This document shows positions 9,646-62,483 of a stretch of 64,000 bases of DNA, one piece after another. A program made the position numbers and the translations under genes. The stretch spans positions 19,148,503 through 19,212,502 of the forward strand of contig CM019715.1 of assembly GCA_009760885.1 (NCBI GenBank). The letters are read 5' to 3'. The stretch's first letter is position 1, and each line of letters begins with the position of its first letter. The stretch is from Achatina immaculata (taxonomy: Eukaryota; Mollusca; Gastropoda; Stylommatophora; Achatinidae). The notes beneath the pieces were generated by a model. That model did no database searches and was not told the DNA's origin. It worked only from the letters and a program-made list of their open reading frames with translations.

Positions 9646-9846
9646 TGTGACTTTAATAGCCTAGGAGATGCCTGACTAACATAGAGGTACTTGCTTCATC
9701 ATTATGTGACTACAGTAGCCTAGAAGATGCTTGACCAACACAGAAGTACTTGCTTCATTGTTATGTGACTACAGTGGCCTAAGAGATGCCTGGCTAACAT
9801 AGAAGTACTTCCTTCATCATTATGTGACTTCATTAGCCTAGGACAG
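9646..9846. repeat. 59-bp tandem repeat, about 3.3 copies
   Basis: The unit (AGCCTAGGAGATGCCTGAC..., ending ATTATGTGACTACAGT) recurs with its AGCC/GGCC anchor at 9658, 9717, 9776 and 9835, a period of 59 bases. Copies differ by roughly 10 percent. Confidence 0.9.
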
Positions 9847-10069
9847 TGGTTCCCAATTGGTGGTATACGGACCAGGAGTCCATGACAAAATCTCAATGTT
9901 TTTTTTTTTTCCGCTGTGGAATGTTTAACATCCAGTGTTTCAGCAAATCCTATGTGGATGAAGGAACATTTTTCATGTTTAAAAATATGAAACATTGAAC
10001 CATATGTGGAAGCGATTGTTTGGAATAAAAAGCGGCATGATCTCTCTCACCATATTTAGGGTTGGTTAC
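9847..10069. other. Flank with a possible hAT-like terminus
   Basis: CAGTGGTTCCCAA just after the 59-bp repeat resembles the terminal repeat of many hAT elements. No matching inverted end was found nearby. A run of T follows at about 9900-9911. Confidence 0.25.
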
Positions 10070-14235: not shown

Positions 14236-14671
14236 CATTTCATTCATTTCATTCATTCCTTTGCATGTCCCTTGCGGAACTTTGCCTCCCAAACAGCACT
14301 CCTGTAGGCCTCTCGGTTGTGAGCAAGATGGCCTGCTGCTGCTGCATCCATTTCCAGATCATCAACGATGTCTTGCAGCCATCTTCGTTTCGGTCTTCCT
14401 CTTTTTCTTTTTCCCATTATGTATCCTTCCAATACGGTCTTCTCTAAATTATCATGACGTTTAATGTGTCCAAAATATTTAAGTTTTCTCTCTTTAATCC
14501 TCTTTACTAGCCAGCCTTCTTCAATATTAAGCTCTTGTAGTATAGATATATTTGTTCTTTTTTGTGTCCACGATATTTGGAGAACTCTTCTATAGCATTT
14601 ACATTCAAAGGCATTTATGTGCTTCTCAGCTGTTTTGTTAAGTGTCCAGGTCTTACAGGCATATGTTGCAT
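14236..14671 (-). mobile_element. RTE-1 3' end inserted in RTE-2
   Basis: The minus-strand translation (open 14253-14699) holds YACKTWTLNKTAEKHINAFECK, RVLQISWTQKRTNISI and GKRKRGRPKRRWLQD, with the (TGAA)n tail at the low-coordinate end. The 11-base direct repeat AAGAAGAAAAT at 14225-14235 and 14672-14682 is the target-site duplication. The copy is 5'-truncated. Confidence 0.9.
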
Positions 14672-14682
14672 AAGAAGAAAAT

Positions 14683-16070
14683 ACTAACAGTAATTTCAAT
14701 CAGGAACTTGCCAATCATTCCAAAACACCCAGTGAAGTTGAGGAGATAGGTATAGATGAATTATGGAATTCTTACAGCACAGCCATAATCACAGTAGCAA
14801 AAGCAAGCGCTGGACTGAAAAAACCTAATAGTAAAGCATGGATATCAGAAAAAAACATGGAAGTTTGACGAGCAGTCAAATTAGACATGTTGAATGCAAA
14901 AAAAGATCTTGGAAAAGATCTGGTGAAAGCAACATACAAAGAAAGCAAAAAGTTCAGTTAGAAGGGATAAAAGAGAATACATAGACAATATGGCGAAAGA
15001 GGCAGAAAAAGCAGCAAAAACAGGAGACAGCAAAACTTTATATAACATACAAAAGAGGCTAACAGGTACTATTACATTTAAAGAAAGACCAATCCTTAGC
15101 AAAACTGGAACCCTATTAACATCAAATAAAGACCAAAAGCAAAGATATGAACACTTCCAAGAAATACTTAATCGACCACACCCAAAAGAATTGTTAAACC
15201 TTGAAACCGACTTACCAGCTCCACAACTAAATGTCAACCTAGATGAAATTACATTGAATTAAATTGAAACTGCGGTGAATTTAATGGCTAACAACAAAGC
15301 TGCAGGTGAAGATGAAATAACATCTGAAATGTTAAAAGCTATCAATAGTGACAACATGAGACAACTACAGAGAATGTTTAATAAGATTTGGAAAGAAGAA
15401 AAGGTCCCCTAAGGTAAACTTGGTGAATATAACAAATAGAGAGAAGTAACCTTAATATCAGCTGTGTCAAAAGTATTCTGGAAGGTCATTTTGAATAGAC
15501 TTGAAAGATATATAGTGGAAACGCAATGAGAGAAGAACAAGCAGGATTTCAAAAGGAGAAATAACACCCGAAATGCTAAAAGCTATCAATAGTGACAACA
15601 TGAGACAACTACAGAGAATGTTTAACAATATTTGGAAAGAAGAAAATGTCTCTTCCAATTGGAAAAAATGAATCATTGTTAAAATACCAAAAAAAAGGCA
15701 ACCTTAGTGACTATAACAATTGGAGAGGAGTAACCTTAATATCAGTTGTGTCAAAAGTATTTTGCAAGGTCATTTTGAATAGACTTAAAGATATAGTGGA
15801 TACTGCAATGAGAGAAGAACAAGCAGGATTTCGAAAAGGGAGAAGCAAGAATGACTAGCTATTATTTCACAATGGAAAAAAGGAATCATTGTTAAAATAA
15901 CAAAAAAAAGGGCAATCTTAGCGACTCCAATAATTGGAAAAGATTAACCTTACTATCAGTTGTATCAAAAGTATTTTGCAACGTCATTCTGAATAGATAT
16001 TAAAAAATTAGTGGATACTGCAATGAGAGAAGAACAAGCAGGATTTCGAAAAGGGAGAAGGTGTCTCGAC
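14683..16070 (+). pseudogene. RTE-2 linker and RT fingers, segment triplicated
   Basis: After the insertion the element resumes with KAWISEKN... and AKEAEKAAKTGDSKTLYNIQKRLTG (14990 on), then LNLETDLPAPQLNVNLDEI. The fingers segment containing MLKAINSDNMRQLQRMFN and the later EEQAGFRKGR occurs three times in tandem: about 15307-15555, 15556-15866 and a shorter one at 15867-16060. Copies diverge from each other by several percent, and none is fully open. Confidence 0.8.
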
Positions 16071-18442: not shown

Positions 18443-19747
18443 CAAGGGGAGGTCACTAAGTAACTCGCAAATTGAAATATTTTATAGGTGGCAGTTATCA
18501 GGTAGTATTTAAATATATCCTTAGATAGTGCCATCATCCAACTTTATAATAGTTGTATGTAGCTGGGAGTTATGTGCGCATGCACAAATCAATAACAAAA
18601 TGGCTACCAAATTTAGTGTGTACCAAAGAAGAACAGAGAAGTGTAGTGCGATTTGTGTGGGCTAAATGACATTCATAAGGAAATGATTATACTTTATGTT
18701 GAAAAGTGTTTATCACGTAAAGCAGTCTATAACTGGGTAAAATAATTTTCTCAGGGACGCACCGAAATTGTTGACAAAGTCCGACTTGGCCGTCCTGTTC
18801 AGATTGCAAAAGAAGCAACTGTGCAACATGTGAATGAGATTATCAGAGCTGTTAGACGAGTAACGAAATACAGTGTAGCAAGTTTAATCAGATGTTAACA
18901 TGGCTTAGCCTACAGAATAATGCATGAGCAATTAAATTTTAGGAAAGTTTGCTCACGTTGGGTACCTAGAGATCTAAATGATGAACACAAAATAAACTGA
19001 TCTGGTTTGTCATTGCAGCATCTCTGTCATTACACATATGAAGGTGAAGACATGCTCCGCAGGATTATTACTGGAGACGAATCATAATGCACAACTACCA
19101 ACCTGAATCAAAATGTGCCTCAATGCAATGGAAATACCCGTCATCGCCACGCACAAAACAAATTCAAGATTACATCTTCTGCGGGGAAGGTTATGCTGAA
19201 AGTGTTCTGGGATTATCATGTTAACCAAGTTCCAGAAGTATGGTGACAGTGTGAATTCTGTATCGTACTGTGAAGTTCTGTCGATGCTACTGGATGCAAT
19301 TCGAAGACAACGTCCTAGTCTGCTGACTAGAGGTGTGCTTCTCCTTCATGACAATGCCAGATCACATACAGCTCGGTTAACCCAAGAGAAAATTAGCCAG
19401 TTGGGTTGGGAAGTTCTTGAACATCCACCCTATAGTCCTGACTTAACTCCAAGCGATTTTCACCTGTTTGGTCCATTGAAAAACCACCTTGGTGGGAGAA
19501 GATTCTCAAGTGACAAAAAAGGTGAAAACAGAAGTAAAAAAATGGTTCAGAAATCAGACTCCCAATTTTTATGCCATGGGTATTGCACCACTGATTTACA
19601 TGATGGGACAAATGTATAACTGTTGGTGGCGATTACATTGAGAAATAGGGGAATAATGTAGGTTCAAAAATTTAAAGTTTTCAAATTACTGTCACATTTA
19701 GTTTTTTTTTAACAGACATTTGTGAGTTACTTAGTGACTTCCCCCCA
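18443..19747 (+). mobile_element. Mariner-1 DNA transposon inserted in RTE-1
   Basis: Length is 1305 bp, the usual mariner size. The ends are inverted repeats: GGTCACTAAGTAACTCGCAAAT near the left end and the complement AAGTCACTAAGTAACTCACAAAT at the right end. TA dinucleotides flank it at 18441-18442 and 19748-19749. Removing it rejoins RTE-1 sequence exactly as in the uninterrupted copy at 40735. Confidence 0.95.
18600..19619 (+). pseudogene. Mariner-1 transposase, inactive
   Basis: An ATG at 18600 starts MATKFSVYQ-type sequence. Across frames come SRKAVYNWV-like helix-turn-helix residues near 18715, a GDES box near 19075 (first catalytic Asp), HDNARSHTA near 19349 (second) and HPPYSPDLTPSDFHLFGPLKNHL near 19425 (third). 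The spacing of the last two boxes fits the DD34D mariner class. The C-terminal half is open from 19218. Stops and shifts in the N-terminal half (for example near 18667 and 18897) make it dead. Confidence 0.9.
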
Positions 19748-20068
19748 TATCATGGACACAAAAAAGAACAAATATATCCATACTACAAGAACTTAATATT
19801 GAAGAAGACTGGCTAGTAAAGAGGATTAAACAAAGAAAACTTAAATATTTTGGTCACATTAAATGTCATGATAATTCAGAGAAGACCGTCTTGGAAGGGT
19901 ACATAATGGGAAAAAGAAAGAGAGGAAGACCAAGACGAAGATGGTTGCAAGACATCACTGACGATCTGCAAATGGATGCATCAGCAGCAGAGCATCCTGC
20001 TTACAACAGAGAGGTCTACAGGAGTGCTGTTAGGGAGGCAAAGTTCCGCAAGGGACATGCAAATGACT
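19748..20068 (+). mobile_element. RTE-1 3' end, right of mariner
   Basis: Continuation of the RTE-1 copy: KKNKYIHT, ARRLKYFGHIKCHD and GKRKRGRPRRRWLQDI, ending in GACATGCAAATGACTGA at about 20068. It is followed directly by a minus-strand RTE-2 piece. Confidence 0.9.
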
Positions 20069-20625
20069 GACTTCAGCTATTATTCTTAGAGTAAAGATCT
20101 GGTCGAGACAGCTTCTCCCTTTTTCAAAATCCTGCTTGTTCTTCCCTCATTGCAGTATCCACTAATATCTATTCAGAATGACTTTGCAAAATACTTTTGA
20201 CACAACTGATAGTAAGGTTACTCCTCTCCAGTTATTGCAGTCACTAAGGTTGCCTTTGTTTGGTATTTTAACAATGATTCCTATTTTCCATTTAGAAGGG
20301 ACCTTTTCTTTCCAAACTTTATTAAACATTCTCTGTAGTTGGCTCATGTTGTCACTGTTAATATCTTTTAACATTTCGACTGTTATTTCATCTTCACCTG
20401 TAGCTTTGTTGTTACCCATTAGATTCACTGCTGTTTCAATTTCATTCAATGTAATTTCATCTAGGTTGACATTTAATTGTGGGACTGATAAGTCAGTTTC
20501 AAGATTTAAGATTTATTAATTCATTTGGGTGTGGTCGATTAAGTATTTCTTGGAAGTGTTCAGCTCATTTTTGCTTCTGGTCTTTACTTGATGTTAATAA
20601 GGTGCCAGTTTTGCTAAAAACTGGT
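20069..20625 (-). mobile_element. RTE-2 internal fragment, left of CR copy 2
   Basis: The minus-strand open frame 20162-20449 reads MNEIETAVNLMGNNKATGEDEITVEML, KVWKEKVPSKWKIG and NLSDCNNWRGVTLLSVVSKVFCKV: RT fingers of RTE-2. It is interrupted by CR copy 2 and continues at 22017-22290. Confidence 0.85.
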
Positions 20626-22016
20626 TCTAAGGACTGTTATTGCCGGAGGTGGGGTGGAGGATACGCACTCCACTCCAATGGTGTGCATCTCAAATAGCCT
20701 CTGACAGTCAAGTCCAGCTCCTGGCCTTCTCTTGGCAGAACTGTTTAAAGTGACAGGAGAAGGGGCAAAGGCGAATATCTGGTGCCTGAAAACCAGACAC
20801 TTCGGGTAGATGAGAGTCATGTTTGGTAGCTCATCTACCGCTGCTGGCGAGATTCTTCAGCTGCCATGCGTGGAGTGGGCTCCTCCCAGCCAATGAAGAA
20901 AGGAGTAAATGGGGTTGCCATGCGGCACCACTGTGGAAAAAGTGAAAGAAAGGAATAAGCGAAGTAAATAGTAGTCAAATCACGGTACCTCTGGTCTGGG
21001 GGTTGGTCACGTCCCAAATGCACTCATATCAGGCATTAAGACACTGCTGGCGAGATTATTCAGATGCCATGCATGGAGTGAAGCTCCCCCCGGGCAAGGA
21101 AGAAAATGCAGAAAAGCAATCCGGGTTGCTGTGTGGTGCCGATGTAAAAAGGTGATGGAAAGGATAAAGTGAAGCTTAATCGGTATGTCCAGTAGTATCG
21201 TGGCGAGAGCTACCCATACCACGGCACCTCTGCTCTAGAGGTGGGCTACGCCCGTTCCACACTCATACTGGTGAAATATGCCTAAATCGGCTTACAGCAG
21301 GGGGTGAAACTTGACAGCTACGCATGTCACGGTACCTCTGCTCTAGAGGTCGGTCATATCCTAAACACGCCTATACTGGGATAATATGCCTAAACCGGCT
21401 CGACCCAGGGGCGGAAGTCACTAGCGGCGAGGACTAGTCCTCCTGGACAAAAGCTCTGTCCTGGTCACAACTAGGAAGGGTAGTGGCCACGACCACAAAA
21501 TGCTGAAGTCAGAGACACTAGACCAGGGCAGTCTAGACAGACAACCACCTCTCACCCAGCAGGGATGTATGCATATCCTAATCACGCTGAGGTTTTCCGG
21601 TGAGAAAGTCCAACGCCAGAATGGAGGGACAATCACCTCTAACCCGGTGGTGATACACAGGTATCTCAAAACACACTGAGGTTTTCTGGTGAGAAAGTCC
21701 AACTCTAGCCTGGATGGGCTACCACCTCTCATCCAGCAGGGATATACTCATATCCAAAATATGCCAAGGTCTTCCAGTGAGAAAGTCCAACCCTAGACTA
21801 AACTGATGCAACGAAAACCACTGTGTCACGCAATCCCGCTTCTGAGACCTACCAAGAATACAGGCTCAAGCCATGCAATACTCTGAACCTCTTGTGGTCC
21901 TCTCAAGGATCTCGTGTGGTAGTAATGGGGGACCACGGGACCTATAGAGGACCACAGGCGTAAATTCAGTAGGATCACAGGGCGGTCTTGGTGGTAGAAG
22001 CGAATGAAGAAGAAGC
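20626..22016 (+). repeat. CR composite repeat, copy 2, with 5' extension
   Basis: 20838-22016 aligns by eye with CR copy 1 module by module and ends AGAAGCGAATGAAGAAGAAG. Upstream, 20626-20837 is a further GC-richer stretch (starting near TATTGCCGGAGGTGGGG) that copies 1 and 3 lack. Imperfect repeats GCTAAAAACTGGT (about 20613-20625) and GCTAAAGACTAGT (about 22016-22028) look like a 13-base target-site duplication with two mismatches. RTE-2 sequence resumes outside them, so the extension is part of the inserted unit. Confidence 0.8.
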
Positions 22017-22290
22017 TAAAGACTAGTCTTTCTTTGGATGCAATAGTACCTGTTAGTTTATTTTGTATGTGTTTTGCTGTCTCCTGTTTTTGCTGCCTTC
22101 TCTGCTTCTTTCACCATATTGTCCATGTATTCTCTTTTATCCCTTCTAGCTGAACTTTTTAATTTATTGTCTAGTTCTTTGTATGTTGCTTTTGCCAAAT
22201 CTTTTCCAAGATGTGTCTTTACATTCAACATGGTTAATATGGCTGCTCGCCTTTCATGTATGTATTTCCATGTCTTATTTGATAACCTTT
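22017..22290 (-). mobile_element. RTE-2 linker fragment, right of CR copy 2
   Basis: Complement of the RTE-2 pre-RT linker (compare 14880-15090: KKDLGKDLVKATYKE, EAEKAAKTGDSKT). It completes the copy begun at 20069. Confidence 0.8.
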
Positions 22291-24918: not shown

Positions 24919-25287
24919 TCTGGTGACTCAAAGCACTGGTTTTCTCAAGTGTACATAATATGGAAGAAACAGAGGAAGACCAAAGCGAATATGGCTGCAA
25001 GTGGTGACTCAAAGCACTGGTTTTCTCAAGTGTACGTAATATGGAAGAGAGGAAGACCAAAGCGAAGATGGCTGCAAGTGGTGACTCAAAGCACTGGTTT
25101 TCTCAAGTGTACGTAATATGGAAGAAAGAGAGGAAGACAAAAGCGAAGATGGCTGCAAGACATCGCTGATGATCTGCAAATGGATGCATCAGCAGCAGGC
25201 CATCTTGCTCACACCTGAGAGGCCTACAGGAGTGCTGTTAAGGAAGCAAAGTTCCACATGGGACATGCAAATAAATGAATGAAATTA
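24919..25287 (+). mobile_element. RTE-1 3' end with triplicated 5' junction
   Basis: The 3' coding end of RTE-1 (RGRQKRRWLQDIADDLQMDA) runs to the (TGAA)n tail near 25285. The 14-base repeat ACGTAATATGGAAG at 25111-25124 and 25288-25301 is a target-site duplication, placing the full insertion at 25125-25287. A block of flank plus the first bases of the element (GGTGACTCAAAGCACTGG... to GGCTGCAAG) is present three times, starting at 24919, 25003 and 25080. Confidence 0.85.
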
Positions 25288-30100: not shown

Positions 30101-31192
30101 TAAATATATAAATATACACATAGTTGCTGCAGTAAAGCTGTGATAACAAAATGTTAAAACCATTTACAATGAAAGTAAGAGCAGCTTTATTTGTTAATGA
30201 GCTAGTTCCAAATTCACCTTTACGTAATATTCCATTTCTGCACAGTGATATTTCGTCTCTACTAGTTCTACTTTTTTCTCACCTGTAATTTATATCCCAG
30301 AACCTTCATTATACTAGATTACAAACATTCTACTCAAGCACATTAATCAATTCCATCAACCTACTTCTCAGCTTGATTACCATTATATTCCTCTCTTTCC
30401 TTACTGCATCTCCCACCCTTGATTTACTACAAACTGTATGAACTAGGAAAAAAGTAGGAACAGTTTTAGTAATTAATGAGCACACAGTTATGACATTTCA
30501 GTGTGATCCTTAATCATACAAAAACACACAGGATGAAGAAATAGATAGAAAAGATAAAGTATAAAATCACTTGAGTGCTATGTTAAAAAAAAATATGAAA
30601 TGAAAAAAATATAATAAAATACAATGAATGGAGCTCTTATCTGTGACTTGTAAGAGACTGTGTTCAGAAATGCGCATGGTGAAGTGTGGAGGTTGTTTAA
30701 TGGAGATTTGTGGTATGTGTCATAAATAAGAAAGGGAACCATGGAGAGGAGAGAGAGTGATACAATGGTAATCTAACCAGGAGAGTTGATTATAGCTGGG
30801 GTAGAGGAGTTGTAATGTGATGCTGTAAGGAGGTTCTGAACTGTGTATTACAAGTGAGAAGGGAGTGGGACTTAGTGCAGAGGGATTATGATAGTGGAAG
30901 AGGGGAATGTTAGGTGTAGCTAAATAGGGAGTTCAAGTCGTGTTGCTCCAGTGTCCCACATTCCTGAATGTAGTGGTTCTCAAGCACTAGGCAGCTTCTG
31001 TCATCAGTGTCACATTGTTTGATGGCTGATATAAAAAAACCAGATTTGCCTCTGTGGCTCAGAGAAGAAAAAAAACTCACTGTCCAAAAAACTGCTTTCA
31101 GGGCACTTATTTGACCCGGTTTTTGTCTTTCCTCTCAAATGAATTTTGCATCTGAGTTCTCTCTCCCTACAATTTAATGTTGGCAGAACCGC
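30101..31192. other. Mostly unrecognised; holds a repeat-X copy
   Basis: AT-rich sequence. The stretch 30437-30535 on the minus strand is a copy of repeat X, listed separately. Nothing else recognised. Confidence 0.5.
30437..30535 (-). repeat. Repeat X, copy 1
   Basis: The complement reads CCTGTGTGTTTTTGTATGATTAAGG..., then CTCATTAATTACTAAAACTGTTCCTACTTTTTTCCTAGTT. Similar sequence lies at 40518-40612 and 57128-57236. Confidence 0.7.
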
Positions 31193-31476
31193 CATTCATT
31201 GATTCATTTGCATGTCCCTTGCGGAACTTTGTCTCCCTAACAGCACTCATGTAGGCCTCTCGGTTGTGAGTAAGATGGCCTGCTGCTGATGCATCCATTT
31301 GCAGATCATCAACGATGTCTTGCAGCCATCTTCACCTTGGTCTTCCTCTCTTTCTTGTTCCCATTATGTACCCTTCCAAGACGGTCTTCTCTAGACTATT
31401 ATGACGTTTAATGTGTCCAAAATATTTAAGTTTTCTCTCTTTAATCCTCTTTACTAGCCAGCATTCTTCAATATTA
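31193..31476 (-). mobile_element. RTE-1 3' end, 5'-truncated
   Basis: Complement of the RTE-1 end (NEIEEGWLVKRIKERKLKYFGHIKRH, GNKKERKTKVKMAARHR-type reading) with its tail at 31193-31208. A short duplication AGAACCGC occurs at 31185-31192 and 31477-31484. Confidence 0.88.
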
Positions 31477-31484
31477 AGAACCGC

Positions 31485-36464: not shown

Positions 36465-37203
36465 TGTGTGCCCTGTGCAGCTCATTCACTAAATCTGGTA
36501 GGCCAAAGTGCTGTTGACTGCTGCCAAGAGGCAGTTAATTTCTTCTCTACAGTGCAGTTAATCTATACCTATTTTTTCAGCCTCAAGCAGCCGGTGGAAA
36601 ATTCTTAAAGGTTGTATTGGAAATGAAAGTGTCTTAAAATCCCTCTCTGATACCAGCTAGGAGGCAGATGCTATGGCAACAGCAACAATTTTGAAATATT
36701 TCCTTAAAATTTTAAAAGCATTAGAATATATAGGTGAAGACCAGTCACAAAAGGGAGATGCTAGAAGAGAAGCACATAATATTGCAGATAAGATGCAAGA
36801 GCTAGAATTTGTTTTTATGTTGAATTTTTGGAATGAGCTTCAGCAGTTTCACTCATACATGCGCCATAAGTTCAGTGCAACAAAAAATATAAAAACAAGA
36901 TTCAGTCATGCTGAACTTTATAAAATAATTGTAGAAGACAATACTGAGTGTGCCTTTCCAAATGCAGACGTTGGCTTTCATATATTATTAGCATTAATGG
37001 TCACAAATTGCTCACCTGAGAGTTCTTTTTCTCAGCTGAAGTATATTAAAAATTCCATCAGAACAACTATGCAACAAGGCAGGCCAGATGCCTTATCTCT
37101 ATTAAGTATAGAAGCAGATGTGTTACATAAAATTAGTTTTGAGGATCTGATCGAAGACTTTGCAATTAAAAAAAGTAGGAGAAAACTTTTCCAATATAAA
37201 TAG
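36465..37203 (+). pseudogene. hAT-1 transposase C-terminal half
   Basis: VPCAAHSLNLVGQSAVDCC near 36468 is the conserved CxxHxLNL box of hAT transposases. Continuation reads EAVNFFSTVQLIYTYFSAS-like residues, then LKSLSDTS near 36635 in place of LSDTRW. The open frame 36673-37203 holds FWNELQQFHSYMRHK and the dimerisation region CSPESSFSQLKYIKNSIRTTM...LSLLSIEADVLHKISFEDLIEDFA. The sub-type resembles ZMYM1-like hAT proteins. A stop and shifts before 36673 and no visible N-terminal half make it a relic. Confidence 0.88.
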
Positions 37204-37214
37204 TTGAAGTATAC

Positions 37215-37363
37215 TTCTTCTTCTTCTTCTTCGTTCGCACTGTCTGTCTATATCTGCAGTCCTGTCTCTTGGATAAATTTCACTGTTTTTTGTAATTCAT
37301 GTATGGAACCATAGAGCTTATCTTCTTTAGTGGTTTCACTGGGCCAGTAATTATTTCTCAGTG
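37215..37363 (-). mobile_element. LINE-A 3' end, 149 bp, 5'-truncated
   Basis: Complement of the LINE-A end (TNYETLRNNYWPSETTKEDKL to the TAG and (GAA)n tail, which lies at 37215-37233). The 13-base repeat AGTTGAAGTATAC at 37202-37214 and 37364-37376 is the target-site duplication, located just after the hAT-1 stop codon. Confidence 0.95.
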
Positions 37364-37376
37364 AGTTGAAGTATAC

Positions 37377-40612: not shown

Positions 40613-40734
40613 ATTTTGGTATCACAGTTTTACTGCAGTGGCTCAGTGTATAGTTATATACTCATACACTAATTACTGTGTGTTAAGAAACGTGTCATGC
40701 TTATGTTCAGAGGTGGATGCCGCATCTGTAAGAG

Positions 40735-41068
40735 TTCTTCAAATATCATGGACACAAAAAAGAACAAATATATCCATACTAAAGAACTTAATATTGAAGA
40801 AGGCTGGCTAGTAAAGAGGATTAAAGAGAGAAAATTTAAATATTTTGGACACATTAAATGTCATGATAATCTAGAGAAGACCATCTTGGAAAAGTACATA
40901 ATAGGAAAAAGAAAGAGAGGAAGACCAAAGCGAAGATGGCTGCAAGACATCGTTGATGATCTGCAAATGGATGCATCAGCAGCAGGCCATCTTGCTTACA
41001 ACCGAGAGGCCTACAGGAGTGCTGTTAGGGAGGCAAAGTTCCGCAAGGGACATGCAAATAAATGAACG
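40735..41068 (+). mobile_element. RTE-1 3' end, uninterrupted reference copy
   Basis: KNKYIHTKELNIEEGWLVKRIKERKFKYFGHIKCHDN, GKRKRGRPKRRWLQDIVDDLQMDASAAGHLAYNREAYRSAVREAKFRKGHANK, then AATAAATGAACGAATG. This is the cleanest C-terminus of the family in the window; the frame is open 40697-41065. Confidence 0.9.
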
Positions 41069-41431
41069 AATGGGGCCTCTTTCTGTGGGTATTAACTTTT
41101 ACAAGTTTCTTGTTAGTAGAAAAAAATGTAGCTGTGCAAAATGCAAAGCATATCTTTGAGAGTTGCAGGATGACAAAGCAAACTCAAAAAGAATTCATGC
41201 ACAAGACGGATGTACTAGAGCAAAGATGCAAAATAATCCAACTATGCGAAGAATTACAGTGTAGCTTACCTACTCAGATGACATTACAACAAATTTCAAC
41301 CAGGCAGGAAGAATAACAGGCCCCAAGCCTGGAAGGGATTCATCTAAAATGACTAATGACCACCCTGCTTTGTGCCATGCGATTTCCTGGGGGGGGGCAG
41401 CTACTAACCATACAAATAAATCCAACATCCT
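41069..41431 (+). pseudogene. Possible LINE-A-like C-terminal relic
   Basis: NVAVQNAKHIFESCRMTKQTQKEFMHKTD near 41118 resembles the knuckle and tail of LINE-A (TVEHILQSCTNYETLR). The rest has no signature. A run of nine G sits at about 41389-41397. Confidence 0.35.
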
Positions 41432-41444
41432 ACAAATGAATGCT
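41432..41444. repeat. Target-site duplication, left copy
   Basis: ACAAATGAATGCT, identical to 43538-43550. The two flank the chimeric retrocopy. Confidence 0.93.
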
Positions 41445-42197
41445 TCTTCTTCTTCGTTAGGTGGACGAATACTCGCTACTAGTGACTTCCACCCCTGGGT
41501 TGAGCCGGTTTAGGCATATTATCCCAGTATGGGCGTGTTTGGGAAATGACCGACCTCTAGAGCAGAGGTACTGTGACATGCATAGCCTTCAAGATTCACC
41601 CCTGGTGTGAGCCGGTTTAGGCATATTTCACCAGTATGGGTGTATATCAGGCGTGACCGACCTCTAGAACGGAGGTGGCATGACATGTCTAGCAATCAAG
41701 TTCCACCCCTGGTATGTGCCGGTTTAGGCATATTTCACTAGTATGGGTGTATTTCGGACGTGGCCGGCCTCTAGAGCAGAGGTGCTGTGGTATGTATAGC
41801 TCTCGCAGCGATACTACTGGACATACCGATTAAATTTCACTTTATCCTTTCCACCACCTTTTCACATCGGCGCCGCACACCAACCGTTATTTCTTTTCCG
41901 CATTTTCTTCCTTGACCGGGAGGAGCTTCACTCCACGCGCGGCATTCGAAGAGTCTTGTCAGCAGTGTCTTATCTTCTGGGATAAACCGGTTCATGCATT
42001 TCACCCGATATGACTGCACTCAGGAAGTGGCCGACCTCCAGACCAGAGGTGCTGTGTTTTGACTGTTTGCTTCGCTTTATCCTTTCTACCACCCCTTCCG
42101 TAGTGGTTCTGCGCGGCAACCCCATTTGCACCTTTCTTCATTGGCCGGGAGGAGTACCGCTCCACGCACGGCAGCTGAAAAATCTCGCCAGCAGCGG
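41445..42197 (-). repeat. CR composite repeat, copy 3, 3' part of a chimera
   Basis: On the minus strand, CR begins CCGCTGCTGGCGAGATTTTTC at 42197 and runs through the first module twice and the GCTCTAGAGG module (107-bp period) to GGTGGAAGTCACTAGTAGCGAGTATTCGTCC near 41462. There it goes straight to AACGAAGAAGAAGAAG. The 89-bp modules and the palindromic 3' part of copies 1 and 2 are absent, so this is a shorter 3' variant with the same GAA tail. Upstream (higher coordinates) it is fused to 18S rRNA sequence. Confidence 0.9.
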
Positions 42198-43054
42198 ACC
42201 TCCAGTTCCGAAAACCAACAAAATAGAACCGAGGTCCTATTCTATTATTCCATGCACCATTATTCAGGCAGCTGGGGCCTGCTTTGAACACTCTAATTTT
42301 TCAAAGTAAACGCGCCGGCCACCCGGGACGCTCAGCAAAGAGCACCTGCAGGAGAGAGCCAGCAGACGGTAGGGCAGGAGACAACGGGCAGTGAACCGGC
42401 GTCAGCCGGACCACCCGCCTGCGCCTGAGATCCAACTACGAGCTTTTAACTGTAACAACTTTAATATACGCTACTGGAGCTGGAATTACCGCGGCTGCTG
42501 GCACCAGACTTGCCCTCCAATAGATCCTCGTTAAAGGGTTTAAAGTGTACTCATTCCAATTGTTATTTTTCGTCACTACCTCCCCGGGCCGGGAGTGGGT
42601 AAGTTGCACGCCTGCTGCCTTCCTTGGATGTGGTAGCCGTTTCTCACGCTCCCTCTCCAGAATCGAACCCTGATTCCCCGTTACCAACATGGTAGGCATG
42701 TCACGTACCATCGACACTTGATAGGGCAGACATTTGAAAGATGCGTCGCCGGCACAGAAGGTCATGCGATCAGCACAAAGTTATCCAGTCACCAGTTGGG
42801 ACACCGCGCCCCGCAAAGGGCAACGACAATTGGTTTTGAACTAATAAAAGCGCTCTTTCCACGAGGGTCGGAGCTTGGTAAGCATGTATTAGCTCTAGAA
42901 TTGCCACAGTTATCCGAGTAGGATCGTGTCATCTAAGGAACCTCGACTGATTTAATGAGCCATTCGCGGTTTCACCGTGAGACAGTGTGAACTTAGACAT
43001 GCATGGCTCAATCTTTGAGACAAGCATATGACTACTGGCAGGATCAACCAGATA
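42198..43054 (-). rRNA. 18S rRNA 5' part, retro-pseudogene
   Basis: The minus strand starts TATCTGGTTGATCCTGCCAG at 43054 and shows canonical 18S landmarks: GCCATGCATGTCTAAG, TACCACATCC-type sequence, GCCAGCAGCCGCGG near 42500, AGTTGGATCTC at the V4 start, TTTACTTTGAAAAATTAGAG, and TTGTTGGTTTTCGGAACT near 42210. It stops at GGAACTGGAGGT, about 857 bases in, where CR begins. A functional 18S would continue for about another 1 kb. Small changes at conserved sites (AAAGATTGAGCC for AAAGATTAAGCC, a shortened A run after CTTTG) agree with a non-functional copy. The V4 sequence (CGGGTGGCCGG...GTTTACTTTG) looks lophotrochozoan. Confidence 0.95.
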
Positions 43055-43537
43055 GCTTTCTTCACGAACCTTTGTCGGATATCTGCAGACAGACCGACGC
43101 GGGGCAAGGGAGACAGCACTCTGATCAAAGTGGATCCTTTTTGACCCCGGCGGCGTTTCATTTCCTTTAACCAGCGGGGGCGACTCTCTCTGCTCTAACG
43201 AACGAGAAGAAAGCCCGGCCACCCACAAACAACACACATTACATACTGCAGACCCGATACTCTTTGCGAGAGATGGGCCAATTTCGAGACCATCAGTCAA
43301 CAAAAATGTACTACACTGTTAGCACGAACCTGGCTGGCTAGCCGTTTATATGCTTCGCTTGACGGACAAACCACTCACTTCTGCAACGAAACACCTTAAC
43401 TGTTGCCGTCCGGGAAGGGAGCGAAAGCCTGTCTCCCCACGCATGGAACTCGTGAGCACTTTTTCGCCAAAAGAATGGTTGGCCTGCGCAACAGCAGCAG
43501 CCCGCGCTGTGCAGCTCAGCGCGTCTCTGCGCGGCTG
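43055..43537 (-). other. 5' external transcribed spacer of pre-rRNA, retrocopied
   Basis: Directly upstream of the 18S start on the minus strand lie 483 bases of GC-rich, non-repetitive sequence ending at the target-site duplication. Nothing here resembles the neighbouring elements. Its position shows it is the 5' ETS. Its outer end (TCAGCCGCGCAGAGACGCG on the minus strand) may be at or near the polymerase I start site if the cDNA reached the RNA 5' end. Confidence 0.8.
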
Positions 43538-43550
43538 ACAAATGAATGCT
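43538..43550. repeat. Target-site duplication, right copy
   Basis: ACAAATGAATGCT, identical to 41432-41444. Confidence 0.93.
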
Positions 43551-43881
43551 GAAGTTAGAAATAAAAAGATCTAACTCATCAAAAAAAAAATTCATAGACC
43601 TTTCATGTACGCAGGAAGCACATCTGAAGGCAGAAAATGGATTCACAATAAGAGGATACCAGATATTCAGACATGAAAGGACACGGCAGTTAGGACACTG
43701 ATTCTTTTAAATTAAATAGCAGCCTAGGAAAAAAACACGAAAATATCAAAATGATAGGAATAGACACTAGGCATACGGAAATAGAAAGAAGTTTATATCT
43801 TCCTCCTTCCCCCTCCCCAAATAAAATACAAACAAAGCATAAGATGTTTACAGAAGCAGAAGCCACTTAATCTCAGTGCCT

Positions 43882-44066
43882 CTCTCTCTCTCTGAACTAG
43901 TGCCCAAGGCACAAGGGGCTTCCACAAACACCCGTCCTTTGCCTTTTTTCTGCTCTTACCCAGATGAGCCTTCTATTGCTCAACATCCTCTCTGTTTTTC
44001 TTCTCCATGTCTCCTTTGGTCAACCCTTACTTCTGTTCCCCTATGGTGTCCATCTTAGTGCTATTT
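43882..44066 (-). mobile_element. RTE-5 3' end fragment
   Basis: Complement of the RTE-5 end, with the (GA)n tail at 43882-43893. The 15-base duplication TTAATCTCAGTGCCT at 43867-43881 and 44067-44081 flanks it. Confidence 0.94.
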
Positions 44067-44299
44067 TTAATCTCAGTGCCTAGCTGAAGGAAAAACTACC
44101 AACCATACTGGGAATAAGAACTCCAACAAATTGAAGACAGCTGTAAAGTGACAGCTGCAAAAGAAGTAGCTGAAACTAAATAAGACAATGAAAGTAATAT
44201 AAGACTAAGAGAAGCAAGTGGTAGGTATAGGAGAGAAGCTAACCAAGCAGCTTCTGGAGAGATAAAACAGAAAATTTAAACCTAGATAAAAGTATTGCA

Positions 44300-44694
44300 G
44301 ACAGAACTACAAAAGTCAGATTTTTAAAGGCATGCATCTTTCCCATCACATCGTGCGCCTGTGAGACCTGGACACTTAACAAAACAGCTGAAAAACAAAT
44401 AAATGCCTTTAAATGTAAAGAGTTCTTCAAATATCATGGACACAAGAACTACAATATTGAAGAAGGCTGGCTAGAAACAGAGAAAACTTAAATATTTTGG
44501 ACACATTAAACGTCAATTTAGAGAAGACCGTCTTGTAAGGGTACATAATGGGAAAAAGAGAGGAAGACCAAGGCATCATTGATAATCTGCAAATGGATGC
44601 TTCAGCAGCATGGCATCCTGCTTACAACTGAGAGGTCTACAGGAGAGTTGTTAGGGAGGCAAAGTTTCACAAGAGACACGCAAATGACTGACTG
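44300..44694 (+). mobile_element. RTE-1 3' end fragment with deletions
   Basis: RTTKVRFLKACIFPITSCACETWTLNKTAEKQINAFKC, then decayed KYFGHIK and a tail CAAATGACTGACTG. Imperfect 12-base flanks AAAAGTATTGCA (44288-44299) and AAAAGTGGTGCA (44695-44706) are probably its target-site duplication. Confidence 0.85.
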
Positions 44695-46640
44695 AAAAGT
44701 GGTGCAAAACTGTGGACACTTATAAAAACTCTAAACCATGAAAACACAAATGCAAACCAATAATCACAGAAAGCAATGGGATAACCCTAAAAGGAAAACA
44801 AGATGCAAATGCTCTTATAGAAAACTGCATGAACATCAGCCAAGTCAAAGCTCTGCTCCAAAGAAAAGACAATGAAATTTACAAAGAACCTAAAGTCTGC
44901 GACAACACCGGTCAGTAAACTTAACCCTCCATGAGTTAGAAACATATCTAAAAGCTCTAAAATGTAGAGAAACAGTCCCCAAGGGAAAGACGGTATTGCA
45001 AAAGCAAAATCCTTGAAAAATATTCAATACCAGCTGGAAGACAGGAACAGTGCCACATATATGGAAGGATGCCACAATGACGCCAATACACAAACCAGGA
45101 AAAATCAAAACTTGCCCAGGTAGTTATAAACCTTTAGCTTGTTAAGCACCGTATTAAAACTAATGGAAAGAATCATAAACACATGACTTGTATGGCACCT
45201 AGAAAGCAAGAACCTGATTTTAAAAAAAGACGCAAGCAGGATTTAGACAACATCATTCAGCAGAAGACAAAGTATTGCACATATTACATGAGACTGAAGA
45301 TTCAATCCAAGAAAATAAAAACACAATAGCAACATAGATAGACATAAAAAAAGGATTTGACAAAATCTGAAGAAAATGCCTGCTGCTAAAACTCAGAAAG
45401 AATGATATACATTGAAGAACGTACACTTGGATAAGATAAATATCTAAACAACAGACATGCACGAGTACAATTACATGGACAATACAGTCCCTCAAAAAAG
45501 TCTTCAGCAAGAAGTACCCAAAGGAGGAGTCATGTTCCCACTCTATTTCTGATACATATAAATGGCATCGCAACCAACATGCACCAGAAAATACATCACA
45601 CATTATATGCAGTTGTAGCAATATGGACATCAGAACAGAACACAACAGTATCCACTAAAGGAATACAAGATGAACTCTGTGCTTGAAAACTAAACCAAGA
45701 GATGGCCAATGACTATTAACGAGAAAATACAACATAGACAATCTCCTCGCTATCAAACAAAATACAAAACACAGACCTAAACAATCTCCTAATGGAATTC
45801 AGCACAATAGTTATGCATCACACTAGACCCCTCCCCTCCCACCCGACTTGGAAAAACATCAACAAATGGTGTTTTTTTATGCACGTCAAAGAATGGAAAA
45901 GATGAAAATACTAGCGAGAACTACCTGGGAAGCAAACCTCAGCATACAAAAATGATATGCACAGGAAGAGTGAGGCCAAAATTGGAATGTGGTGTGACAG
46001 CATGGGCAACAGCAGCCAAAACCAATCTTAACAAACCAGACAAAGTACAAAATCAGGGACTGAGAATCATAACAGCAAAACAAGATCAAAACAACACTAA
46101 TTGCAGAATTGGAAAGTGTAACACAAACACATCTAGAAAACAGAAAAGAACTAAAAATGCTACTACAAGCAGAGCAATTAAAAAGATTAAAAGAACACTC
46201 AATGTATGATTGCATGCACAAGCAAAGCAAAAAGGGGCAGACTAAAGAGAACTAACTTCATCCAAAGAGCAAAGAAACTCCAGCAAGATGACCCAACAAT
46301 ACCACATACACAAAGCAAATCTCTGCAATTATTTTTCCAAATTCCCACCATGTAAAATAATTTTTAAAATCCCACAACTGCAAGGTCAGCTTTCAGCCAT
46401 ACAGTACAAATTGAACTCAAATAGTAAAAGAAAAACAATTGATAGCATTAGATTTTTTTTTAAAACTGTCCCAAAAAGTACTGGACACACATTTACATAC
46501 ACAGACCTATCCGCTACAAACGCCACAGAAAATGAAGGCGGAGACATATGCATAAAACTAAAACAACAGCAAACAATATTGATGGGTATACCACCAGGCG
46601 TCTATTCAAATAATTATATAGCAGAGTCAGAAGCAATAAA

Positions 46641-48572: not shown

Positions 48573-48754
48573 CATGGATTTAAGCAATTCATTGGGCATA
48601 TAACCACTGTTGTAAGTGTCATTCAGTAACTTGGTTAGTGTTTTTATTCCTATCTCCTCTAGTGCCCTATTTCTTCTATTGTTATATTATCAGGCCCAGC
48701 CGTTTTTCCTTTCTTTATGTGTTTGATGGCATCTATGATTTCATTTTCAAGTCA
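48573..48754 (-). mobile_element. Older RTE-3 copy, segment 1
   Basis: Complement of RTE-3 RT fingers (KHIKKGKTAGPDNITIEEI..., LLNDTYNSGYMPNELLKSMF). The same copy resumes at 50767 beyond the LINE-A insertion. Confidence 0.88.
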
Positions 48755-50766
48755 ACAGTACAGAAGATCAAGTGACCTATCTCTCTCAAGAGATAGGATG
48801 CATTCCAAGAGAAAAACCTTGTACTAGCAGCGTGGATAGACCTGAAGAAAGCCTTTGATAAAGTATGGAAAAAAGGTCTGCTGTGGAAACTAAGAAACTG
48901 CAATGTGAATGGAAGACTGTACAACTGGATAAAGTCCTATTTACACAATAGAAGAGCTAGAGTAGTAATGGGTGGACACAAAAGCCAGAAAGTACTTCTG
49001 TGACGTGGTGTACCACAAGGAGGAGTCCTTTCGCCTACACTATTCCTTGTATTCATTAACAACCTGGTTAAGGAACTTCCCTGTGGAATCAAAGTGGCAC
49101 TGTATGCAGATGATCTAGTCATGTGGTGTACAGATGAATATGCGACAGTTGCTACACAGAGACTCCAAAGAGCAGCAGACATCTTGACATCATGGACAAA
49201 CAAATGGTGTGTAAGTATCAACACAGAGAAATCAAGTACCACTCTGTTCACCCTCTCATCTAAACAGAAAGCAGGTAAGATCTTTGTAAATTAAATATCC
49301 TTAAGGATGGACAACCAACCTACTTACTTAGGAGTGACTCTTGACTCAAAACTGACCTGGAAGCAGGTGCAGAAGCAAAAGCCAGAAGAAAACTAGCCAT
49401 ATTAATAAAATTAAGTGGAACCACATGGGGAGCTAGTGAAAGAATCCTCAAGAATGTATATCAGCAAAGTATTCTACCACATTTAGAATATGGCTCAACA
49501 TCTTGGTGCACAGCATCAAACACTACGCTGCAAAATCTAGACAAGGTTCAAAATCAGTCACTACAGATTATCACAGGTGCCATGAGGTCCACACCAATAG
49601 TAGAAATGCAGAAAATAGTTGGTGTTCAAGCGCTAAAGGAACATAGAGACACAAAGGTCATGACCATGGGAGAGAAATTCCTCAGCTCTGTAAGCCATCC
49701 CCTGAAGGAGAGATTCAATAACTTGGCACTAAGACAGCTTAAAAGAAGCAGCTTCATTCATCAGGCCAAGCGTATGTGTAAGCTGATACCTGACCTTCCA
49801 ACTGTAGTCACTCCATTATCTTCTGTACCAGAGCATACACCATGGAAAGAAGCAGATTATACACAAATAACTATTCAGACTGAAGTGAAAGGTGTGCAGA
49901 ATGGTTAGATGCAGAGGAGTCTTGTAAGATCAACAGCCACACTTAGTGTTTTAGATGATAAATATCCATGTGACACCTGGATACGTGTGTATACAGATGG
50001 ATCTGCACATAATGCCATAAAGAATGGAGGGGCAGGAGCACATATTGAATATCCAAACAACACAACTGACATGATTTCCATACCCACTGGAAAATACTGC
50101 AACAACTATGATGCAGAAGTTAGGGCAATTATTGCTGCAGTTGAAAAACTATCACTTCAGAATTGATACATGTCCCATAGTAATTCTCACAGATGCAAGA
50201 TCAGTGCTGGAAGCTCTTCAGTGCAACAAACTACCAGACCTTAAGGATGCCCTGTCAAAAGTTGGCTTACAACATGGAGTCACTTTGTACTGGATTCCCT
50301 CCCACTGTGGGATACCAGGTAATGAGAAAGCTGACCATCTGGCCAAAGAGGGCACTGAAATGAGCAACCAGACATACCAATCAGCTATAATCAGAAGAAA
50401 AGCATGATAAAAACCTACAGGAAGCCACAAACACTACCACATGATGACTATCACATGCTAAACAGAAAGGAACAAGTCACCATCTTCCGTCTCCGAACAG
50501 GACACGGCCGACTCCAAAGTTATATGTATACAAAGTTTAAGGTTGGTACTACTAATCTATGTACATGTGCCCAGGTGCCCCAAACTGTGGAACATATCCT
50601 CCAAAACTGCACCAACTACGAGACACTGAGAAATAATTACTGGCCCAGTGAAACCACTCTAGAAGATAAGCTCTATGGTTCCATACATGAATTACAAAAA
50701 ACAGTGAAATTTGTTCAAGAGACAGGACTGCAGATATAGACAAGACAATGCGAACGAAGAAGAAGA
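48755..50766 (+). mobile_element. LINE-A, 5'-truncated 2-kb copy
   Basis: Starts inside the RT fingers (STEDQVTYLSQE) and runs to the TAG at 50737-50739 and (GAA)n tail near 50757-50766. YADD is at about 49103, YTDGS near 49995, SHCGIPGNEKADHL near 50304, and the knuckle CTCAQVPQTVEHILQNC is complete near 50560. It is about 97 percent like the copy at 6870-8909 by eye. Lesions include TGA near 49002, a TAA near 49291, a deletion near 49366, a TAG near 49906 and small shifts near 50150 and 50370. Imperfect 10-base flanks ATTTTCAAGT / ATCTTCAAGT fit a target-site duplication in RTE-3. Confidence 0.92.
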
Positions 50767-51082
50767 AGATCTTCAAGTCTTGGTGGTCCATCATAGTTTT
50801 CAGTATCTTGTGTTAATTCTGGTCTTTCTCCTCCATACAGCTCTCCGATGTACTCTATCCACCTGTCCACAATGTCTTCTTTTCCCATTACCTTCTTTTG
50901 ATTTCAGGCATCCTGTGGTATATTTTGTTTTCCTGCCTGTGAGTTCACTAATTCGAATGTGCATGTTTTAGCTGTCTTTATTATGAGAGTCATCTATTTG
51001 TCTGCACTGTTCATTTAACCACACTTCCTGTGCTTCTTTGCATTTGCGTCTTATTTCTTATTTATCTTGCTATATTTTTCTT
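50767..51082 (-). mobile_element. Older RTE-3 copy, segment 2
   Basis: Complement of RTE-3 bases equivalent to about 52560-52890 of the full copy (NSRTDRQENKIYHRMPEIKRR and the segment before LEDEI). It is interrupted on the right by the full-length RTE-3. Confidence 0.9.
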
Positions 51083-57336: not shown

Positions 57337-58613
57337 CAAGGTCCGACAATTAAGTAATGAGACTGATTTTATTATGGTCAAGACAAAAATAGCATCTATA
57401 AAGCAAGGTGTGGAATCCAAAGAGGCAACTTTCATCTATGATCCTGCAACTTTTCATCGCCGCCCAATAAGCAGACGACAAACAAGCCGCCATTCTGTTG
57501 ACCTAGTCAGAGGTGCATTGTTACGTAATCAGCATGGAGCAAAAAGCTAACATTAAATTCTTTTTAAAACTCGGAAAAAGTGCCATTGAGACAGTTGAAT
57601 TGATACGATAAGTTTATAGGGATAATTGTTTATCTCATACACAGATATTCAGGTGGTATTCACGATTCAAAAGTGGCGTGGAAACGATTACAAATGCAAC
57701 TATACATGGACGCCCAATTTCTGGTCTTAATGAGGAACTCATTGCAAAAGTCAGAGAATGAATACAAGAAGATCGTTGTTTGACTGTGAGGATGATATGG
57801 TGTTAACAGAGAGACCATTCGTAAAATTTTATTGGAAGATTTGGGCAAGAAAAATGTTGCTTGCCGGTTTCTACCACATTCGTTGTCAGATGGCCAAAAA
57901 CATCAGCGTGTTGAGTACCCAAAAGACATCATCAAAACATGTCGCAGAAATAAACATTTCTTAAATCTGATTGTTGCAGAAGATGAAACATGGATTTTCC
58001 GCTATGATCCCATAACTAAACGCCAAAGTGCTCAGTGGAAGTCACCATCGTTACCAAAAGGCAAAAGTCTTCAAAAGTTGAAAGTGAAGACAATGTTGGT
58101 ATTCTTCTACGACAACAAAGAATTTATTCCAGAGGGACAGACTGTCACTGCCGAAGTTTATTTCAGTATTTTTAAATGCCTATTGAAAATGATTCTCCGA
58201 GTCCGACCCGAGTATTCAACACCTGGCAGTTTTTTCCTTCTTCATGATAATGCACTGTCTCACTGGGCAGTAGTTGTACATGAATTTTTACCCCAAAAAC
58301 TAGTGTGTGTTCTCAACCATCCACCATATTAATACCCCAGATTTGTATCCCTGTGATTATTTTCTATTCTCTAAAGTTACCATTGAAAGGATGCTTCTCT
58401 GATGATACTGATGACATCCAAAGGGCCATAACATCGAGTTTAATTGGCAAACCAACAGAAGAACTGCAGAGGTCGTTCCAGTGTCATGCCACTCGCTGTA
58501 TCAATGCACAAGGGGCTTACTTTGAATAAAATACAAGTTATATATCTTCGACTGTTGTTTTATTTTATTTTTTTTTAATGTAATTAGTCTCATTACTTAA
58601 TTGTCGGACCATG
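57337..58613 (+). mobile_element. Mariner-2 DNA transposon with clear TIRs
   Basis: 1277 bp between TA dinucleotides at 57335-57336 and 58614-58615. The terminal inverted repeats begin CAAGGTCCGACAATTAAGTA and, on the complement at the right end, CATGGTCCGACAATTAAGTA. They match over about 30 bases with only two or three differences. It is a different family from mariner-1. Confidence 0.96.
57534..58527 (+). pseudogene. Mariner-2 transposase, several lesions
   Basis: ATG at 57534 starts MEQKANIKFFLKLGKSAIETVELI, then IFRWYSRFKSGV near 57651 (helix-turn-helix region) and IHGRPISG. The open frame 57832-58332 holds VAEDETWIFRYDPITKRQSAQW (first Asp), VKTMLVFFYDN and FFLLHDNALSHWAVV (second Asp). 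A shift near 58330 moves PDLYPCDYFLFSK (third Asp box) to another frame. Stops at about 57609 and 57759, and a shift near 57790, break the N-terminal half. The last two boxes are spaced roughly as in DD34D mariners. Confidence 0.9.
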
Positions 58614-59308: not shown

Positions 59309-59745
59309 CAGTCCTTGTTCCTCCGTCTTCGGGGCTCCTTCCTCTGTATACACTCTCCTGTACTTACATACTTCTTCGTTCGTACTCTGATTGTCTGTTC
59401 TTCCATCTTTGGCCCCCTCCCCAGTCTCCTCTCTCCTGTACTTCCGAACTTCTTTGTCCTAGATTATCTGTTCTTCCATCTTCGGGCTCCCTCCCCAGTC
59501 TCCTCTCTCCTGTACTTCCGTACTTCTTTGTCCTAGATTGTCTGTTCTTCCATCTTCGGGCTCCCTCCTCTGTCTCCTCTCTCCTGTACTTCCGTACTTC
59601 TTCATCCATGATTGTCTGTTCTTCCGTCTTCGGGCTCCATCCTCTGTCTCCTCTCTTCTCCACTTCTTTTTGTCCTAGATTGTCTGTTCTTCCATCTTCG
59701 GGCTCCCTCCTCTGTCTCCTCTCCTCTACATCCATACTTCTTGGT
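59309..59745. repeat. 74-bp minisatellite, about 5-6 copies
   Basis: The unit includes TGTCTGTTCTTCCATCTTCG, GGCTCCCTCC and TGTACTTCCGTACTTCTTTG. The TCTGTT anchor lies at 59394, 59467, 59541, 59615 and 59683, spacings 73, 74, 74 and 68. It is pyrimidine-rich on the plus strand. A 239-codon frame (59209-59928) runs through it, but because 74 is not a multiple of three the repeats are read in shifting frames; I regard it as a by-product of base composition. Confidence 0.92.
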
Positions 59746-61973: not shown

Positions 61974-62475
61974 AAAACAAATGAAGAATCTGTAGAGAGG
62001 AGCAGACAGAACCACAAAAATACGATTTTTAAGGGCATGCATCTTTCCCATCGCAACATATGCCTGTGAGACCTGGACACTTAACAAAACAGCTGAGAAA
62101 CTCATAAATGCCTTTGAATGTAAATGCAACAGAAGAGTTCTTCAAATACCATGGACACAGAAAAAGAACAAATATATCCATACTACAATAACTTAATATT
62201 GAAGAAGGCAGGCTAGTAAAGAGGATTAAAGAGAGAAAACTTAAATATTTTGGACACATTAAACATCATGATAATCTGGAGAAGACGATCTTGGAAGGGT
62301 ACATAATGGGAAAAAGAAGGAGAGGAAGACCAAGGCGAAGATGGCTGCAAGACATCATTGATGATCTGCAAATGGATGCATCAGCAGCAGGCCATCTTGC
62401 TCACAACCGAGAGGCCTACAGGAGTGCTGTTAGGGAGGCAAAGTTCCGCAAGGGACATGCAAATAAATGAATGAA
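61974..62475 (+). mobile_element. RTE-1 3' end fragment
   Basis: LWRGADRTTKIRFLRACIFPIATYACETWTLNKTAEKLINAFEC, KYFGHIKHHDNLEKTILEGYIMGKRRRGRPRRRWLQDIIDDLQ, then AATAAATGAATGAATG. The flank TGTCCGGT at 61966-61973 and 62476-62483 is the likely target-site duplication. Confidence 0.92.
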
Positions 62476-62483
62476 TGTCCGGT

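Follow-up and report, generated by a model that had tools for sequence, protein, structure and literature searches.

The window considered in the current analysis (the whole stretch of DNA of 64,000 nucleotides) contains on its minus strand a chimeric block, in which an ETS-like segment and the first part of an 18S rRNA sequence are fused to a composite repeat referred to here as CR (Table 1). Read along this strand, the flanking sequence ...TATTTCTAACTTC is followed by a target-site duplication (TSD), AGCATTCATTTGT, then by the ETS-like, 18S and CR segments, the last of which ends with AACGAAGAAGAAGAAG, and then by the TSD again. The block target reads AACTTC/AGCATTCATTTGT (a slash marks the site boundary) and the block tail is CGAAGAAGAAGAAG. 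Two further copies of CR (k10 and k20), a LINE and two 5'-truncated copies of the same LINE have also been identified. The anatomy given in the original prediction, namely 483 nucleotides of ETS-like sequence, about 857 of 18S from its first nucleotide and CR with (GAA)n, is borne out, coordinates included, by the match to Rfam family RF01960, by the other CR copies and by the tail.

Table 1. Features of the chimeric block and of the related elements in the window
Feature	Position	Strand	Description
Chimeric block	41445-43537	minus	ETS-like 483 nt, then 18S 857 nt, then CR 753 nt with (GAA)n end
TSD, 5' copy	43538-43550	minus	AGCATTCATTTGT in CR sense; exact 13-bp repeat of 41432-41444
TSD, 3' copy	41432-41444	minus	Directly after the GAA tail; its own AG could also be tail
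Segment directly 5' of 18S, 483 nt	43055-43537	minus	Putative 5' ETS of pre-rRNA
18S rRNA copy, 857 nt from first nucleotide	42198-43054	minus	RF01960 match
CR repeat of the block	41445-42197	minus	Core modules and three 107-bp tandem units; 3' end short, with a tail of (GAA)n
Putative TSD relic in 18S, from a former insertion of CR	42198-42209	minus	TTTTC/GGAACTGGAGGT/CR; fits YTT[GC]/ plus 11-13 nt
Second CR copy, k10	10069-11380	plus	5' breakpoint at most 1 nt from that of the block; has 3' module and tail GCGAATGAAGAAGAAGAAG
Third CR copy, k20	20626-22014	plus	5' end about 213 nt longer; TSD 20613-20625 / 22015-22027, 2 mismatches
10-bp all-Watson-Crick hairpin in k20	20805-20839	plus	Within CR, the block breaks 2 nt, and k10 1 nt, inside the 3' base
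LINE	5244-8909 (about)	plus	Exo_endo_phos endonuclease, RVT_1 and RNase H domains; frame broken by in-frame stop; tail GCGAACGAAGAAGAAG; start coordinate provisional
5'-truncated LINE copy	37202-37376	minus	TSD (G)TATACTTCAACT, 12-13 bp (37364-37376 / 37202-37214)
5'-truncated LINE copy	48743-50779	plus	TSD ATTTTCAAGTC / ATCTTCAAGTC, 11 bp, one mismatch (48743-48753 / 50769-50779)

Identical 13-base duplications had been claimed to bound the block of 2093 bp. The two copies of ACAAATGAATGCT agree at 13 of 13 positions, and a search of both strands finds this 13-mer at these two places of the window only. None of 20000 shuffled versions of the TSD occurs in 42201-45200. By a harsher yardstick, 170 of 20000 trials in which a 13-mer was taken at a random place find it again 0.3-3.3 kb downstream, a count that reflects a repeat-rich window and does not require adjacency to a tail. 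The inner junction between 18S and CR is devoid of any duplication. The name ETS for the segment 43055-43537 is putative and derives only from its position upstream of the 18S sequence, with whose first nucleotide it is contiguous; the segment has no match elsewhere in the window at an E-value of 1e-3.

The match of RF01960 on the minus strand begins at 43054 (579 bits; at 43051 in another run) and runs from model position 1 onward. The matches continue past the junction into CR (to 42134 and 42130), and the end of the 18S part has therefore been set from the consensus and from protein frames. Two of 30 database 18S frames (P0121 and P0122) read NWR and then end, the others differing there. 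An end after NWR fits the native GGAACTGGAGG-TAA (GGAACTGGAGGTAA) and thus places the end of 18S homology at T 42198, in agreement with the switch point 42197/42198 of the original prediction. Exact scans with an 18S 22-mer gave no match in viral contigs and none in prokaryotic contigs, where little is expected, and plasmid records yielded two distant 18S-like matches.

With respect to RF01960 the 18S copy has a gap of 25 nt, which removes a stem-loop, and another of 7 nt within the strongly conserved UAACGG stretch. Among 321 strongly conserved columns 9 are deleted and 11 substituted, as counted over nine alignment rows, which do not include those with model positions 691-746 and from 838 on; part of the substitutions may be normal variation of the clade. 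In RF01960, sequence conservation is weak in most columns of the missing hairpin. As far as is known, animal 18S rRNA keeps this hairpin. Devoid of both the hairpin and the 7-nt conserved stretch, the copy reads as a pseudogene and not as rDNA. These losses speak against a functional ribosomal gene or a plain misassembly of rDNA, and are compatible with loss at the time of copying as well as with later loss.

CR is represented by three copies in 64 kb. The CR part of the block matches 10069-10796 (91%) and 20838-21444 (78-85%); the identities over aligned columns are 682/743 for the block and k10, 517/619 for the block and k20 and 997/1161 for k10 and k20. About 560 nt of the 3' part present in both k10 and k20, including three 89-bp tandem units, are missing from the block (at 41445-41470). 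Splicing has been rejected as the cause, since the left edge has no GT in the alignment. The CR copies contain no reading frame longer than 108 residues, a protein search with the frame of the k20 5' module gave no match, Rfam reports nothing over 20500-22100 (the k20 region) up to E = 1, and an exact scan of viral contigs with a CR 17-mer gave no match, little being expected there. Given the lack of a long frame and a tail held in common with the LINE, CR looks like a SINE-like passenger; ARAGORN finds no tRNA in the window, so CR is not put forward as a SINE of tRNA type.

The k20 copy interrupts another repeat, of which an uninterrupted paralogue at 15088-15100 shows the target. At 20613-20640 a second look-alike, TCTAAGGACTGTT, lies beside the TSD copy GCTAAAAACTGGT of k20, as if the target had been duplicated twice. 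A search for a TSD around k10 gave one exact 8-mer match and two 10-mers with one mismatch, none of them convincing. The 5' neighbour of k10 (9844-10068) starts, after a 59-bp tandem array, with CAGTGGTTCCCAA, presumably a hAT-like end; its 3' neighbour resembles LINE RNase H sequence, and the two flanks do not seem to belong together.

A protein search with the LINE of the window gives 1484 relatives. Of the 120 matches listed among these, eight carry organism names, which are Littorina, Bradybaena or Batillaria; these are gastropod genera, and the host is thus probably a gastropod. The closest relative among the matches listed is 69% identical. In the window, four LINE 3' ends have the sequence GCGAACGAAGAAGAAG; k10 and k20 have GCGAATGAAGAAG, which differs by a single CpG transition, and the block has CTAACGAAGAAG. 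The tail AACGAAGAAGAAG, of the type GAAYGAAGAAG, is common to the block and the four LINE 3' ends, and the duplications of the LINE copies, of 11-13 bp, are also like that of the block. From these shared features the GAA-tailed LINE with endonuclease, reverse transcriptase and RNase H domains is the likely source of the enzyme for the block, and we infer that it was this LINE rather than a relative that provided it. CR, in turn, looks like a non-autonomous passenger of the same family. The LINE-like AACGAAG in the block tail had prompted consideration of a tripartite chimera (LINE tail, CR and 18S), which was rejected, the AATGAAG of k10 and k20 differing from it by one CpG transition.

These observations bear on the original prediction that reverse transcription began on CR RNA and then jumped to unprocessed pre-rRNA. 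The part that stands is a single target-primed retro-insertion, a reading of the whole block that is supported by the one TSD, the 3' tail, the absence of an inner duplication, the pseudogene-like 18S and a LINE with like tail and TSD length; the jump is not established.

The CR breakpoint of the block lies at a predicted secondary structure. At the end of the additional 213 nt of k20, positions 20805-20814 can pair with 20830-20839. Of the four stems of at least 10 pairs in k20, this one alone is free of G-U pairs. A stem of at least 10 pairs ending within 2 nt of the breakpoint appears in 1 of 500 mononucleotide shuffles of k20, and the 91-nt hairpin piece is only modestly more stable than its shuffles (z -1.8; 13 of 200 as good). 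In the simplest reading, a k20-type hairpin would stop reverse transcription at this point. Alternatively, the 213 nt could be a foreign head on k20. An extension of this alternative considers the breakpoint as a recurrent head-swapping point, since three copies carry three different upstream sequences (pre-rRNA, the hairpin-ended module of 213 nt and another stretch) at the same nucleotide to within 1 nt, and supposes that CR regularly gains new heads, Pol I transcripts included. We regard this as doubtful; if true, the CR passenger could found new families.

The sequences preceding the TSD have been compared at the four mapped insertions and read TTTTG/ (37202-37376), ATTTC/ (48743-50779), TTTTG/ (k20) and ACTTC/ (block). 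A motif YTT[GC] before a TSD of 11-13 bp can thus be read at all four, that is at the two truncated LINE copies, k20 and the block. The 18S sequence before the join reads GGTTTTC/GGAACTGGAGGT/CR, with the motif 12 nt before the CR junction. Of 818 candidate junctions taken from the 857-nt 18S part, those that fit at a TSD length of 11-13 nt number 26 (3.2%) for YTT[GC], 20 (2.4%) for TTT[GC] and 5 (0.6%) for TTTT[GC]; at 10-15 nt the numbers are 51 (6.2%), 39 (4.8%) and 9. The motif was chosen after the 18S sequence had been seen and was drawn from four sites, the block among them. At three of these sites the limits of the TSD can be drawn in more than one way: the G before the boundary may belong to the TSD in the 37202-37376 copy and in k20 (13 bp, then TTTT/), and if the AG of the block is tail, its TSD is of 11 bp after CAG/, which misses the motif. 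The occurrence of the motif at TSD distance in 18S gives modest evidence, no more than suggestive, for a prior insertion of CR there, weakened by a definition made post hoc from few sites with partly ambiguous edges. A check for such a motif, one TSD length ahead of the join, could serve to tell transduction and template switching apart in other chimeras.

We lean slightly, over a template switch, towards the reading that the block is a LINE-family copy of read-through rRNA from a ribosomal gene with an earlier CR insertion, which the original prediction had named as its alternative, and hold its probability to be about even. A 5'-truncated CR copy would first have inserted at GGTTTTC^GGAACTGGAGGT of an 18S gene, an occasional insertion into rDNA being expected from the density of CR copies. 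Read-through of the interrupted gene, presumably by Pol I, would then give an RNA with the order 5' ETS, first part of 18S, CR and (GAA)n. We propose that 18S interrupted by CR could not mature, so that the ETS stayed on. The LINE enzyme would seize this RNA by the CR tail and copy CR along with everything upstream, the outcome being a 5' transduction in which the rRNA promoter would act as the promoter lying upstream. A cotranscript of this kind would account for the colinear sense orientation and the retained ETS with no need of a second RNA. Against the read-through count the two retrotransposition events that it needs and its demand that the read-through RNA end at the CR tail or that copying start there internally, and no 18S gene holding CR has been sighted. 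All 30 matches of a protein search with the junction-spanning frame fall within residues 1-34, in the 18S part, and no predicted protein found in the collection spans the junction; this also counts against the read-through, predicted proteins being a weak test.

In a template switch, the LINE reverse transcriptase would start on the GAA tail of CR, stall at the base of the 5' hairpin, jump to a pre-rRNA fragment ending inside 18S and copy towards the pre-rRNA 5' end. The block, a different RNA in sense orientation joined bluntly to a truncated element, has the traits published for LINE chimeras, namely sense orientation, TSDs, predicted strong hairpins just upstream of the switch sites and no microhomology (accessible part of PMC2104539), the last provided that k20 represents the CR donor. 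Cases of 28S/L1 are known among L1 chimeras (n = 18, the 28S segments being in sense in 83%; accessible part of PMC13174262). The position of the break at the hairpin, where k10 also breaks to within 1 nt, favours a switch as well, but the same hairpin would equally be expected to truncate a CR copy inserted in 18S and so does not discriminate between the two, and with four comparable stems and a modest fold it is not unique. A switch would also need a pre-rRNA broken just at the join, or an internal jump, and would leave the 18S motif at TSD distance as a coincidence of 2-3%. We consider it less likely than not. A ligation that joined fragments of pre-rRNA and CR RNA, with the usual target-primed copying to follow, fits the blunt, homology-free junction, and the RtcB route has been named for U6/L1 chimeras (PMC13174262, accessible part); nothing specific speaks against it except the site motif, which it leaves unexplained, and we judge it quite unlikely.

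Two further explanations depart from a single retro-insertion. rDNA is prone to misassembly, which is the general ground for suspecting an assembly error or relocated rDNA, but the exact TSD at both ends, the tail at one end and the deletions in conserved 18S parts make this very improbable. Two separate insertions, of an ETS-18S retrocopy and then CR at its end or in the reverse order, draw on the frequency of CR in the window. A later CR would, however, leave a like short sequence on both sides, and its flanks differ (GGAACTGGAGGT before it, (AG)CATTCATTTGT after it), AGCATTCATTTGT recurring at the far end of the ETS-like segment; the single TSD around the whole block contradicts such a history, which we find scarcely credible.

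Among known systems, the LINE template-switch chimeric retrogenes (U6-L1 and others in mammals, WEIRD/MGL in Magnaporthe) share with the block a cellular RNA on the 5' side that is joined in sense to a retroelement truncated at its 5' end, with one TSD, no microhomology and a break at a predicted hairpin (PMC2104539, PMC13174262, in their accessible parts). They differ in that the partner in the block is pre-rRNA with ETS-like sequence and 5' 18S, the element is a non-autonomous passenger and the 18S site motif suggests another route. The human tailless retropseudogenes of 18S and 28S are likewise LINE-made rRNA pseudogenes, with only two 5'-truncated 18S cases reported in the accessible text of PMC5322556; the block, in contrast, retains the 18S 5' end together with ETS-like sequence, and its fusion partner is a tailed element.

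The rDNA elements R2 and R8 and the R2 SIDEs combine element and rRNA in one cotranscript, as proposed for the block. CR is not confined to one rDNA site, k10 and k20 lying outside rRNA sequence, where Rfam finds no rRNA. The LINE of the window has an Exo_endo_phos endonuclease, which R2-type elements are not known to have. R2 also jumps to U12 and tRNA (PMC3414825, accessible part), and R8 is located in hydra 18S genes (PMC5035012, accessible part).

SVA_F1 arose by transcription from upstream. In this fusion of SVA with MAST2 exon 1, a non-autonomous composite with tandem repeats is joined to another transcript, as in the block (PMC10681720), and SVA is mobilised by L1 in trans (PMC7353768; both papers in their accessible parts). 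The fused transcript of the block would differ in being a Pol I rRNA precursor.

LINE chimeras themselves are already known, and their partners in the accessible parts of the literature examined are mostly small stable RNAs, mRNAs and fragments of mature rRNA. What is new in the block, in a probable gastropod, is that a LINE passenger is joined to precursor rRNA comprising ETS-like sequence and the beginning of 18S; among the titles and abstract openings searched outside subscription papers, no report of an ETS-18S/LINE chimera was found. Such a copy would mean that precursor rRNA, and not only mature rRNA, reaches the LINE enzyme. Were the read-through reading correct, a ribosomal gene would have been invaded by an element that has no specificity for rDNA, and this element would have used the promoter of the gene and moved on again carrying rRNA.

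The window contains other repeats also. One LINE 3' end is present in six copies (40730-41070, 14248-14669, 19747-20070, 31192-31478, 44297-44697 and 62053-62477), which are mostly 90-95% identical, the 44297 copy being 74-80% identical; part of this end forms a tandem array of 81-bp units near 24921-25159. Two fragments (57796-58332 and 36661-37203) match Transposase_1 and also, with scores under the curated cut-off, the hAT dimerisation domain, the second of the fragments adjoining a truncated copy of the GAA-tailed LINE. A 74-bp tandem repeat of 5.8 copies at 59316-59742 lies within an open frame of 254 residues.
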